51,342 bases of DNA from contig JAGWYG010000018.1 in assembly GCA_018969485.1 (NCBI GenBank), positions 1 through 51,342 of the forward strand. The letters are read 5' to 3'. Both the position numbers and the translations under genes were made by a program. Under the pieces are notes generated by a model. That model ran no database searches. It saw only the letters and a list, made by a program, of their open reading frames with translations, and had not been told where the DNA came from. Positions 6,252 to 24,613 of the stretch are shown in pieces. Every line of letters begins with the position of its first letter. The first letter of the stretch is position 1. The DNA is from Chloroflexota bacterium. Lineage in GTDB: Bacteria > Chloroflexota > Chloroflexia > Chloroflexales > Roseiflexaceae.

Positions 6252-6292
6252 CAGCGCCGTGTGGCCGCCGGTCGCCCGTGGTGCGGCGCGTG

Positions 6293-19581: not shown

Positions 19582-19586
19582 TCAGC
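19577..19586. repeat. Palindrome joining two convergent stop codons
   Basis: GCTGATCAGC is a perfect 10-bp palindrome in which the chrA TGA (19579-19581) and the nth TGA (complement of 19582-19584) lie directly back to back. No bases separate the two genes. Confidence 0.7.
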
Positions 19587-20259
19587 GGCGTTCGCGTGGC
19601 GCGACGCCACGGCGCGCGCACCATTCCGCCACCGGGCAGCGCTCGCAGTGCGGCCGGCGCGGCCCGCACAGGTTCTGGCCGAACGCCACCAGCAGGCGGT
19701 TGATCTCGGCCCAGTGGCGCTCCGGCAGGATGCGCCGCAGCACCAACTCGGTCGCATCCGGGTCGCTCGTCGCGACATATCCCCAGCGGTTGCAGATGCG
19801 GTGGACATGCACATCGACGCAGATGCCCGGCAGCCCGAACCCGGCCGTCAGCGTCAGGTTGGCCGTCTTGCGCCCGACGCCCGGCAATGCCAGCAGCCCG
19901 TCGAGGCTGGCAGGCACGGCGCCGCCGTGCTGCTCGAGCAGGATGTGGCAGATCGCGTGGATCTGCCGCGCCTTGGTGCGATAGAACCCGACCGGGCGGA
20001 TGAGCGCCGCCAGCTCATCCGCGCCGCAGGCCAGCAGCGCGGCGGGCGTATCGGCGCGGGCGAACAGCCGCGCGGCCACCGGCGCGGTGACGGTGTCGCG
20101 GGTCCGCAGGCTCAGCAGTGTCGCGATCAGCACACGGAACGGCGTCGCACCGGGCAGCGCATCGATCGCCGGCGCCGGCCACGCCTCGCACGCCTGCGCG
20201 ATGCGCTGCAGCATCAGCGAGACCGGCAGCCCGCCCGGCTCACTCGACGGCAGCATCAT
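19582..20259 (-). CDS. nth: Endonuclease III (DNA glycosylase/AP lyase)
   Basis: This protein of about 225 residues removes oxidised pyrimidines and cleaves at the abasic site by beta-elimination. The helix-hairpin-helix LPGVGRKTA contains the catalytic Lys. The essential Asp is in VDVHVHRICNRWG. Four Cys (C-x6-C-x2-C-x5-C near the C-terminus) bind a [4Fe-4S] cluster. The start is uncertain: ATG 20259, 20256 or 20214 are possible and none has a strong Shine-Dalgarno. The first two overlap the end of the upstream gene, suggesting translational coupling. The N-terminus is slightly divergent but all catalytic residues are present. Confidence 0.92.
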   Translation of the reverse strand: MMLPSSEPGGLPVSLMLQRIAQACEAWPAPAIDALPGATPFRVLIATLLSLRTRDTVTAPVAARLFARADTPAALLACGADELAALIRPVGFYRTKARQIHAICHILLEQHGGAVPASLDGLLALPGVGRKTANLTLTAGFGLPGICVDVHVHRICNRWGYVATSDPDATELVLRRILPERHWAEINRLLVAFGQNLCGPRRPHCERCPVAEWCARRGVAPRERR

Positions 20260-21586
20260 CGCGCAGCACAAAGTCGTCGAAGCGTACCCGCGTCATGCCC
20301 GCATCGCCGGCGCTCACGATCACCCCGACGCGCCCGACCACCGTCGTCCCCAGATCGACCTCGCCGATCTGGCTGTGGTTGATCGTCAGCGTCAGGATGC
20401 TGCCGGCCACGCTCACGCGCAGCTCATTGGTCGCGCCGGCCTCGGTGAGAATCTCGGGCAGCGCGGTGCGCGGCACCAGCACCTCGGTGCCGGTGGTCGG
20501 CGACGAGCGGATCACGGCGACCTCGCCTTCGGGGAACAGCAGCAGGCTGTAGAAGTCGAAGTTGCCGCCATCGCCGAACACCAGGCCATAGGCCGCGCCG
20601 GCGCCATCGGCCTGCAGCAGCGTGGCGCTGACGTCGGCGGTGAACGCGGCGACGCGCGACGAATCCACCGGCATCGGTTGCTGCCACGTCTGGACGCCCG
20701 CACCGATGATGATCTCGTAGCCGCCGCTGCTCAGCGTCGCGCCGCCGACGCTCCAGCGCACCGCCGCCGGGCCGTCGAACGAGTCGTCGAGCGTGAGCGC
20801 GCCGACCGTGCCGCTGACCGCCTCAAACGCCACCGTCGCGCCGCCCGCGTCGGAGGTCTGCACGCCGAGCGTCAGCTGACCGCCCACATCGATCGCATCA
20901 TCGGCGGTGATCAGCGGCACGTCATTCACCGACGCCACCAGACTGGCCCCCTGGGCCACCAGCCGCAGCCGGTTGGCCGCACCCACGCCGCGCCGGATGG
21001 CGCCATACTGCCGCCACGGCACCAGCGCCAGGTGCTCGCCGGCGCGCACCCGCACCAGCCGGGCGAAGCCGTCGCTGCTGATGGCGAACATCAGATAATC
21101 CTCCGGCCCGGTCTGGCGGAAGCGAATGCCATACGCGGCGCGCGCGTCACCCTCGGTCTGGCGCACGTCCACCGACAGATCGAAGTCATCGACCGCGCCG
21201 GCATCGAACGTCTCGGCCGCCGGATCGTCGGCGGGCGGCCCGAGGTACAGCGTGTAGCTGTCGAACGACCGATTGGCGACATTCATCACCAGCGCGCCGT
21301 CGCGCACCATCACCAGCGACTGATCCCAGCGCGGCGCGGGCGCGGCAAACCGCTCCTCGATGAGCAGCGGGCCAGCGCGCGGCGCCAGCGCCAGCTCGGC
21401 CGGCGCGTCCGGCGGCGGCGTGCCGCGCACCAGCCCCACGGCGATCGCCAGCTGATCGAGCGCACCCGACCGCGACGCCAGCACGCCGAGCACCACGAGG
21501 CACTGGCAGGCGACCAGGACGCCGAGCGTGGCGATGAGCCCGACCAGCCAGCGCGGCCGGCGTGGTGCATCGTGTGATCCGGTCAT
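20240..21586 (-). CDS. Membrane-anchored protein with two beta-sandwich domains
   Basis: This 448-residue protein has one N-terminal transmembrane helix (about residues 14-38) followed by two repeats of a beta-sandwich. The repeats open with LLIEERFAAPAPRWDQ and LTLDDSFDGPAAVRWSV. Each contains strands of the form AYGIRFRQTGPEDYLMFAI or AYGLVFGDGGNFDFYSLLL, as in concanavalin-like DUF1080 (3-keto-disaccharide hydrolase) domains. It is probably extracytoplasmic, binding or acting on sugars; no catalytic residues can be assigned. ATG 21586 is chosen because GGGGGGAG lies about 8 bases upstream. The frame extends 51 bases further but without a ribosome site. It overlaps nth. Confidence 0.7.
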   Translation of the reverse strand: MTGSHDAPRRPRWLVGLIATLGVLVACQCLVVLGVLASRSGALDQLAIAVGLVRGTPPPDAPAELALAPRAGPLLIEERFAAPAPRWDQSLVMVRDGALVMNVANRSFDSYTLYLGPPADDPAAETFDAGAVDDFDLSVDVRQTEGDARAAYGIRFRQTGPEDYLMFAISSDGFARLVRVRAGEHLALVPWRQYGAIRRGVGAANRLRLVAQGASLVASVNDVPLITADDAIDVGGQLTLGVQTSDAGGATVAFEAVSGTVGALTLDDSFDGPAAVRWSVGGATLSSGGYEIIIGAGVQTWQQPMPVDSSRVAAFTADVSATLLQADGAGAAYGLVFGDGGNFDFYSLLLFPEGEVAVIRSSPTTGTEVLVPRTALPEILTEAGATNELRVSVAGSILTLTINHSQIGEVDLGTTVVGRVGVIVSAGDAGMTRVRFDDFVLRDDAAVE

Positions 21587-21652
21587 GGCATGCTCCCCCC
21601 GTCGTGCGCCGCCAGCGGGCGACGCACGCTTCCCCATCGGCCAGCGCGCGGC

Positions 21653-23269
21653 TCAGTCGACCAGCAGCGCCATGCCGCCGCCGCCGGCATCCGAGCCACC
21701 GGCGAGCGCGCCGCTGACCGGATCGATCGTGATCGCCTGCACCAGGCTGATCGCGCCGTGGCTCTGCGGCAGGCGCACCACCGCATGACGCCGGCGCACC
21801 GCCTCGCACACATACTCCGGAATGCGATGCTGGACCACGATCCGATCGCCCTGACAATCGAAGCGCGGCGCCACCACCGCCTCGACCGCACTCATGCCGA
21901 ACACCAGGCGGTTCAGGATCACCTGCAGCACCCCGGTGATGATGCGGCTCGCGCCGGGCGCCCCGACCACCATCACCGGGCGGTCGCCCTGATACACCAC
22001 CGTCGGCGCCATGCCGGTCGTGCGGCCCTTCCCCGGCGCGATCGAGTTGCGCCCACCCGGCACCGGATCGAAATTGATCATCGAGTTGTTGTACATGAAG
22101 CCGAGCCCCGGCGTGATCACGCCCGACGACATGCCGAGCGAGTGGGTCAGCGACACGCACCGCCCGCTGCCATCGACGACGCTGACGTGCGTGGTGCTCG
22201 GCGGACCATGCGGCAGGTCGGCCACGCGGATGGCGGCGCCGGCATCAATCTGGCGGCGCCACTCGGCGGCGCGCTCCTGCGAGCACATCCAGTCGAGCGG
22301 CACCACAACGCTGTTGGGATCGCCCATCCAGGCGTTGCGGTCGGCGAAGGCCGCCTTCATCGCCATCGCGACCAGCCAGATGTAGTCGGGCGTGTTGTGC
22401 CCGAGCGCCGCCAGATCGTAGCCGGCGAGGATGTTGAGGATGGCGATCAGCGTCGGGCCGCCGTGCGGCGCCTGCGATGATGCGATGGTGTAGCCGTGGA
22501 AGCCGCCGTACGTCGGCGCCTCGTCGCGCACGCGGTAGCCCGCCAGATCCTCACGGGTCACCCAGGCATCGTTCGCGGCCAGATCGGCCAGCATCCGCTC
22601 GGCCAGCGCGCCGGTGTAGAAGTCATCGGGGCCCGCCGCGGCCAGGTGGCGCAGCGTGGCGGCGTAATCGGGGTTGCGCAACTGCATGCCCTCGTCGTAC
22701 GGCTGGCCGGCGCCGTCCAGATAGATGCGGCGCGCCTCGGCGTTCGTCTCGATGTACTCGAGCAGCGAACACGCCTCGGGGTACGCCGCGCGGGTCTTCC
22801 AGCGCGCTGCAAGCTGCGAATCGACCATGAAGCCGTGCTCGGCGATGGCGATCGCCGGCGCGAGCGCCTGCGCCCAGCCGAAGGTGCCCCAGCGCTGCAG
22901 CAGCGTCGCCAGGCCGCGCACCGTGCCCGGCGTGCAGATCGCCTGATACCCGCGATCGTTCACCTTGTCGCGCAGGAAGTAGCCCCAGCCGTCGGGGTTG
23001 GCGCGGATCACCGCGTCGGTCCACATCGCCGGCGTCACACGGCTGCCGGCCAGCGCCGGCGCGTCGAGCAGCAGCGTCTGTGCTGCGGCGGCGCCCGGCT
23101 GATGGATGGTGGCCAGCGCATACCCGCCCAGGCCACACATCTGCGGATTGACGATCATCTGGGCGAAGGCACAGACGACCGCAGCATCGACAGCATTGCC
23201 GCCCTGCTGCAGAGCGCGCGCCCCCGCCTCGACGGCGACGGGCTCGGCGGCGACGATCATCGCTGGCAT
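21653..23269 (-). CDS. ggt: Gamma-glutamyltransferase (glutathione hydrolase family)
   Basis: This 538-residue protein is an Ntn-hydrolase that self-cleaves and then transfers or hydrolyses gamma-glutamyl groups. The cleavage/nucleophile site is STTHVSVVD, with Thr359 as the predicted new N-terminus. GVITPGLGFMYNNSM and GMAPTVVYQGDRPVMVVGAPGASR are conserved small-subunit motifs. No signal peptide is visible. ATG 23269 is chosen because AGGAGA lies 9 bases upstream. The longer frame starts in the promoter palindrome at 23311. It is divergent from the LarA-like gene, sharing the -10 region, and followed closely by the beta-sandwich protein. Confidence 0.92.
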   Translation of the reverse strand: MPAMIVAAEPVAVEAGARALQQGGNAVDAAVVCAFAQMIVNPQMCGLGGYALATIHQPGAAAAQTLLLDAPALAGSRVTPAMWTDAVIRANPDGWGYFLRDKVNDRGYQAICTPGTVRGLATLLQRWGTFGWAQALAPAIAIAEHGFMVDSQLAARWKTRAAYPEACSLLEYIETNAEARRIYLDGAGQPYDEGMQLRNPDYAATLRHLAAAGPDDFYTGALAERMLADLAANDAWVTREDLAGYRVRDEAPTYGGFHGYTIASSQAPHGGPTLIAILNILAGYDLAALGHNTPDYIWLVAMAMKAAFADRNAWMGDPNSVVVPLDWMCSQERAAEWRRQIDAGAAIRVADLPHGPPSTTHVSVVDGSGRCVSLTHSLGMSSGVITPGLGFMYNNSMINFDPVPGGRNSIAPGKGRTTGMAPTVVYQGDRPVMVVGAPGASRIITGVLQVILNRLVFGMSAVEAVVAPRFDCQGDRIVVQHRIPEYVCEAVRRRHAVVRLPQSHGAISLVQAITIDPVSGALAGGSDAGGGGMALLVD

Positions 23270-23308
23270 CAGCGTGCTTCTCCTGCTCGATAGGCTATTC
23301 TGTCGTGC

Positions 23309-23320
23309 CATTATATAATG
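23309..23320. promoter_or_regulatory. Palindromic shared -10 for divergent ggt and larA-like genes
   Basis: CATTATATAATG is a perfect 12-bp palindrome. It contains TATAAT on the plus strand (23314-23319) and TATAAT on the minus strand (23310-23315), overlapping by two bases. The predicted starts are near 23326 (plus) and 23303 (minus). The two polymerase complexes would be mutually exclusive. No -35 is evident in either direction. Confidence 0.65.
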
Positions 23321-23350
23321 CCACGGTGACCATACTACCGCGAGGACGTC

Positions 23351-24613
23351 ATGTCAGTCGACCAGTTGCGTCTCGTTCCGGTTCGCCAGACGCTCATCCG
23401 CCGCCCGCTCGCCGACCTCGCCGCCGCGGTGGCCACGACGCTGCGCCAGAGCGGGGTGCTCGACCAGATCGCCGCGGGGGCGCGGATCGCCGTCGGCGCC
23501 GGCAGCCGCGGCATCAGTCGCTACGCCGAGGTCGTCGCGGTGGTGGTGGCTACGCTCCGCGAGGCCGGCGCCCATCCGTTCATCGTGCCGGCGATGGGCA
23601 GCCACGGCGGCGCTACCGCCGCCGGACAGTTGGCAGTGCTGCGGGACTGGGGGATCGACGAGGCGGCGATGGGCTGCCCGGTGATCAGTTCGATGCACGT
23701 GGTGGCGCTCGGCCAGACCCCCGCGGGCGTGCCGGTGTTCTGCGATGCGGCGGCCTACGCCAGCGATGGCATCATCGTGGTGAACCGCGTCAAGCCCCAC
23801 ACGGATTTCCACTCCACGACGGAGAGCGGCCTGACGAAGATGCTGGCGATCGGCCTGGGCAAGCGCGAGGGCGCCGAGGCCATCCATCGGCGCGGCGCGG
23901 CTGGGCTGCGCGAGGACCTCCCGGCGGTCGCGGCGGCGCAGGTGCGTCGCGCGCCGGTGCTCGGCGGTGTGGCGATCATCGAGGATGGCGTGCATGCCGT
24001 GAGCGAGGTGGTCGCGCTGCCTGCCACTGCCATCGCCAGGCGCGAGCCGGCGCTGCTGGATCGCGCCCGCGCGATGGCGCCGGCGCTGCCGTTCGCCGCT
24101 GCCGATGTGCTGGTGGTCGATTGGATGGGCAAGGACATCAGCGGCACCGGCATGGATACGACCGTGATCGGCCGGCGGGCCATCGATGGCGAGCCCGAGC
24201 CGGCGTCGCCCCGCATCGGCACGATCGCGGCGCTGCGGCTGACGCCGGCGAGCCATGGCAATGCGACGGGCATCGGCCTGGCCGATGTCGTCAGCCAGAC
24301 GCTCGTCGCGGCGATGGACGCGGCGGCGACCGCGGTGAATGTCGCGACGAGTGGCTTTCCGCGCCGCGGCGTGGTGCCTGCGGTGGCCGACGATGACCGC
24401 CGCACGCTCATGGCGGCGCTGCAGCGCGCCGGGTGCGCGCCGGAGTCTGTGCGCCTGGCGCGCATCGGCGACACCCTGTCGCTCGAGCACCTGCTTGTGA
24501 GCGCGGCGCTGCTCGATGAGGTGTGTGCGCGACCGGGCGTGGTGCGATGCGGCGAGGCGTGCGCGCCGCTGTTCGATGCCGCGGGCCAGTTGATGGATCT
24601 GACGGCCCGCTGA
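23351..24613 (+). CDS. LarA-like (DUF2088) nickel-pincer-family protein
   Basis: This 420-residue protein belongs to the lactate racemase LarA superfamily. In characterised LarA the NPN nickel cofactor is attached to a Lys and a His while two other His act in proton transfer. Here H85 (GSHGG), H150 (VKPHTDF), K163 (LTKML) and H179 (EAIHRRG) fall at spacings close to those of LarA, so the cofactor site may be intact. LarA homologues racemise or epimerise various 2-hydroxyacids, so lactate should not be assumed. GAGGA lies about 5 bases before ATG 23351. No larB, larC or larE is in the window. Confidence 0.82.
   Translation: MSVDQLRLVPVRQTLIRRPLADLAAAVATTLRQSGVLDQIAAGARIAVGAGSRGISRYAEVVAVVVATLREAGAHPFIVPAMGSHGGATAAGQLAVLRDWGIDEAAMGCPVISSMHVVALGQTPAGVPVFCDAAAYASDGIIVVNRVKPHTDFHSTTESGLTKMLAIGLGKREGAEAIHRRGAAGLREDLPAVAAAQVRRAPVLGGVAIIEDGVHAVSEVVALPATAIARREPALLDRARAMAPALPFAAADVLVVDWMGKDISGTGMDTTVIGRRAIDGEPEPASPRIGTIAALRLTPASHGNATGIGLADVVSQTLVAAMDAAATAVNVATSGFPRRGVVPAVADDDRRTLMAALQRAGCAPESVRLARIGDTLSLEHLLVSAALLDEVCARPGVVRCGEACAPLFDAAGQLMDLTAR

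Follow-up and report, generated by a model that had tools for sequence, protein, structure and literature searches.

We identify the perfect 12-bp palindrome CATTATATAATG at 23309-23320 as very probably a bidirectional promoter of the housekeeping sigma type, of the class with starts 23 bp apart, serving both the gamma-glutamyltranspeptidase gene ggt and the divergently oriented LarA-like gene. Positions refer to the window, the whole stretch of DNA that was analyzed (51,342 nt), and are collected in Table 1. The palindrome lies inside the 81-bp gap between the two genes, with 40 bp between its core and the start of ggt and 31 bp between its core and that of the LarA-like gene. TATAAT is present on both strands with a two-base overlap, just as the preliminary description had read it; the central TA (23314-23315) is common to both hexamers, the minus-strand copy running from 23315 to 23310. 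RNA polymerase would bind in either orientation at these two perfect and opposite hexamers that share a TA step, ggt mRNA beginning near 23303 and LarA-like mRNA near 23326, i.e. 23 bp apart. We infer that both strands are transcribed, and the exact starts are predicted from the positions of the -10 elements.

Table 1 Coordinates of the ggt/LarA-like divergent gap and its flanking genes (positions in the window).
Feature	Position	Strand	Basis and remarks
ggt, gamma-glutamyltranspeptidase family	21653..23269	-	PF01019 1.2e-113
Shine-Dalgarno AGGAG of ggt	23280..23284	-	Sequence; kept in relative
Predicted transcription start (+1 A), ggt	23303	-	Inferred from -10 position; leader ~34 nt
12-bp palindrome CATTATATAATG	23309..23320	both	Functional core ATTATATAAT at 23310-23319, kept in same-genus relative
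-10 element TATAAT, ggt	23310..23315	-	Sequence; 23314-23315 common with + element
-10 element TATAAT, LarA-like gene	23314..23319	+	Sequence; TATAAT/TAnnnT peak 30-75 nt upstream of host starts
Predicted transcription start (+1 G), LarA-like gene	23326	+	Inferred from -10 position; leader ~25 nt
Shine-Dalgarno GAGG of LarA-like gene	23342..23345	+	Sequence; within 10-base run identical in relative
LarA-like gene, nickel-pincer-cofactor isomerase group 22	23351..24613	+	NF052515

The identities that the preliminary description had given to the flanking genes were borne out by family searches: ggt by its match to PF01019 (its product scoring slightly under the cut-off of TIGR00066), and the LarA-like gene by NCBIfam NF052515 (474 bits; cut-off 400). 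The 2024 survey of the LarA superfamily makes no mention of group 22; larC (PF01969), a cofactor-synthesis gene, was found elsewhere in the same genome. The likely start of ggt is that at 23269, with AGGAG ahead of it, which is preferred over an ATG at 23311 inside the palindrome. Close downstream of ggt and on the same strand follow a 465-aa gene (20240-21637, minus strand, directly 3' of ggt), for which no match was obtained in Pfam or NCBIfam, and nth, coding for endonuclease III (19582-20271).

The palindrome is not a chance word. It is unique in the window even when two mismatches are tolerated (0.06 matches expected), and the 4.02-Mb genome holds two copies of CATTATATAATG and three of its core ATTATATAAT, with none of the reversed control; a first-order Markov model built on sampled intergenic DNA puts the number of core copies to be expected across the genome's intergenic DNA at about 0.003. 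Two of the three core copies are in GC-rich contigs, and both sit between divergent genes, one between ggt and the LarA-like gene, the other (C84:21141-21150; positions 1501-1510 of stretch L114) between a YedY/MsrP-like and an alcohol dehydrogenase-like gene, names given from the translated open reading frames without a family search. The stretch that holds the third copy (C123 around 39075; L115) has a GC content of 47%, against about 70% for the genome; its contig may have a foreign origin or have entered the bin as a contaminant.

Conservation was compared between two species, the genome of the window and a same-genus relative (G001; contig CAIQIY010000691.1, Chloroflexi metagenome assembly). 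The relative has the same ggt/LarA-like pair, the LarA-like proteins being 82% identical; its gap measures 79 bp (vs 81 bp), and there ATTATATAAT is separated from ggt by 36 bp and from the start of the LarA-like gene by 33 bp. Conservation of the palindrome in relatives had been put forward as a check in the preliminary description; in G001, the 10-bp core is kept and the outer G is not, the outer bases being C and A (CATTATATAATA) and the 12-bp palindrome shrunk to 10 bp. A gapped alignment of the gap in the two species has 53 identical columns out of 83, the longest identical runs being 11 bases (CATTATATAAT) and 10 bases (the ribosome-binding stretch of the LarA-like gene); ungapped, the flanks are identical at 12/36 and 10/31 positions. 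Exactly two copies of ATTATATAAT occur in G001, at places orthologous to the two GC-rich copies of the window's genome; at the YedY/MsrP-like/alcohol dehydrogenase-like locus (L142 in the relative) the core is kept along with the longer stretch CACTGGTATTATATAATCAGCG.

Other overlapping pairs fared differently from one another in the relative. The element TATGATAGCATA, a bidirectional -10 of the 18-bp class in a 96-bp divergent gap of the window's own genome (C30; L166 about 6270-6285), is fully kept though parts of its flank differ. At two further loci (L163 and L121) the overlapping -10 pair has only one -10 intact in G001, so overlap alone is no proof of two-way use and retention of both halves is not automatic. 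Such pairs lend some credit to a one-way promoter at ggt/LarA, in which polymerase uses a single TATAAT and the second arises simply because a -10 sequence is nearly symmetric; this is nevertheless distinctly improbable, given that G001 has both halves intact amid diverging flanks, that both genes start 31-40 bp off with ribosome-binding sites, and that an 81-bp gap leaves scant room for a second promoter. The retention of both TATAAT halves argues that both are used.

Background statistics were taken from 370 kb of the genome (26 stretches, 287 genes called with a simple codon model of our own). In this sample TAnnnT, TATAAT, TATGAT, and TATACT have their maximum 30-75 nt ahead of gene starts, the last three ranking among the most enriched hexamers; TTGAC sits further upstream than these -10 words, and many host -10s carry a TGn extension. 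The peaks of the -10 words, together with the more distant TTGAC, indicate that the host uses sigma-70-type promoters, and the -10 at the palindrome is of this housekeeping type. Divergent gaps of 30-500 bp were then surveyed for opposite -10s with at least 5/6 matches and predicted starts 7-25 bp apart. Overlapping pairs were present in 8/30 gaps, against 0.53 in dinucleotide shuffles (sd 0.78, maximum 4); two of the eight (those of the window and of the C84 stretch) had been sampled because of the palindrome, and leaving them out gives 6/28. The spacings were 23 bp (four pairs), 18 bp (three), 15 bp (one), and 9 bp (one). An overlapping reverse -10 accompanied good -10s in 13/39 cases for divergent genes and in 2/20 for other genes, the latter two at one gene.

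The core could also be the site of a dimeric regulator that targets the ggt/LarA-like and MsrP-like/alcohol dehydrogenase pairs and reads as TATAAT by coincidence. Its exact symmetry and the presence of two, and only two, conserved copies in each genome of this genus would suit such an operator, which we regard as highly improbable all the same: the two loci have no obvious likeness beyond 10 bp, short for an operator, and their flanks share no symmetric pattern beyond the -10 core; the sequence consists of precisely two consensus -10s, suitably spaced from both genes; and degenerate -10 pairs with the same 18- and 23-bp spacings occur at other divergent gaps. A bidirectional promoter is retained as the preferred explanation, and ggt and the LarA-like gene probably share it. 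That one palindromic -10 serves both genes, as had been proposed, agrees with its position, with genome-wide enrichment between divergent genes, and with both halves being kept in the relative.

The remaining promoter elements were sought around the palindrome. Hexamers at -35 (spacing 16-18 bp, both sides, both species) reached at most 3/6 matches, no -35 or -18T common to both species was detected in the ggt/LarA gap, and no TGn extension is recognizable in either direction, the -10 of each promoter filling the TGn position of its partner. The sequence gives no reason to predict high occupancy, since neither a -35 nor a TGn is recognizable either way. Because the TGn sites are occupied by the opposite -10 and no -35 is seen, it may be the two full-consensus hexamers that sustain activity in both directions. 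A sigma-70 scan of the region 20-28 kb missed the palindrome, as the scan demands a -35; its sole nearby match was a minus-strand site, CTGACA-17-TATGGT (23357-23329, 9/12 match), which overlaps the LarA-like start and is non-consensus, the palindrome being preferred to it. No start map for this GC-rich Chloroflexota host species was found in the papers searched, and none of them brought TATAAT together with start sites in Chloroflexus.

That two RNA polymerases are excluded from the site at once, as the preliminary description held, follows from the geometry of the overlapping -10s, and opposing polymerases at a bidirectional promoter are unable to bind together (PMC12825309). Expression need not be competitive merely because the site can hold one polymerase at a time. 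Five bidirectional promoters of E. coli, whose starts are separated by 10-23 bp, were all too weakly transcribed at the basal level for the two directions to compete; the other direction gained nothing when one was weakened, and mutual repression was seen only upon strong activation of one direction (PMC12825309). The further claim that ggt and the LarA-like gene are expressed in competition is therefore not upheld, considering these five promoters and the lack of a recognizable -35 or TGn; nor is that of a switch between the two genes, for which no activator site, high strength, or common pathway was found. A switch in which the two polymerases vie for the shared -10 and the genes are expressed alternately could appeal to the steric impossibility of simultaneous occupancy (PMC12825309) and to both hexamers being full consensus, which could raise occupancy. 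We consider it unlikely, possible yet unsupported, in view of the five out of five tested E. coli promoters without basal competition (PMC12825309), of the -35, TGn extension, and activator site all unrecognized in this gap, and of two genes without functional link, which adjoin each other, among all fetched LarA-like loci, only in the two species of this genus. A more specific form, in which a double-consensus promoter devoid of a -35 is used at two loci of the genus and is strong enough both ways for basal polymerase exclusion to give true alternation of the two genes, is likewise improbable. For the bidirectional promoter preferred here, ggt and the LarA-like gene would each have their own basal expression, unaffected by the partner, and would interfere only upon strong activation of one direction.

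The rule for bidirectional promoters (here starts 18 or 23 bp apart) is extended, by sequence alone, to a GC-rich Chloroflexota genus, in which such promoters are easy to spot because AT-rich words are rare; about a quarter of the sampled divergent gaps have a bidirectional -10 pair. Whether polymerases compete at the basal level could be tested cleanly on a perfect palindrome whose two -10s both match the consensus. For ggt and the LarA-like gene themselves the meaning is limited to a probably shared promoter.

The arrangement is already known and common in bacteria, and the palindrome of the ggt/LarA gap is probably an ordinary bidirectional promoter and a newly added example. By the criterion of Warman and Grainger, divergent starts are 7-25 bp apart, with 10, 18, or 23 bp favored; 18 bp is the commonest distance, and 10 and 23 bp are also common (Warman et al. 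2026, PMC12825309), and all three are frequent in E. coli (PMC12825309). Their definition, opposite -10s overlapping on the two strands, describes 23309-23320, and the predicted distance between 23303 and 23326 falls in a favored class, as in other bacterial bidirectional promoters with a shared -10 (Warman, Grainger, and colleagues 2026; Middlemiss 2023). Known cases usually lie between divergent genes on chromosomes (PMC12825309, PMC10268837), as does this one, and the E. coli examples likewise have divergent protein genes that share -10 sequence, with starts 10-23 bp apart (PMC12825309). Several of these pair a regulator with its target, or two genes of one pathway, and have known regulators, whereas neither a regulator nor a shared pathway is evident for ggt/LarA. 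The ggt/LarA element further differs from known bidirectional promoters in having no recognizable -35 or -18T in either direction, in belonging to a GC-rich Chloroflexota host, and in having -10s that are both perfect consensus and palindromic.
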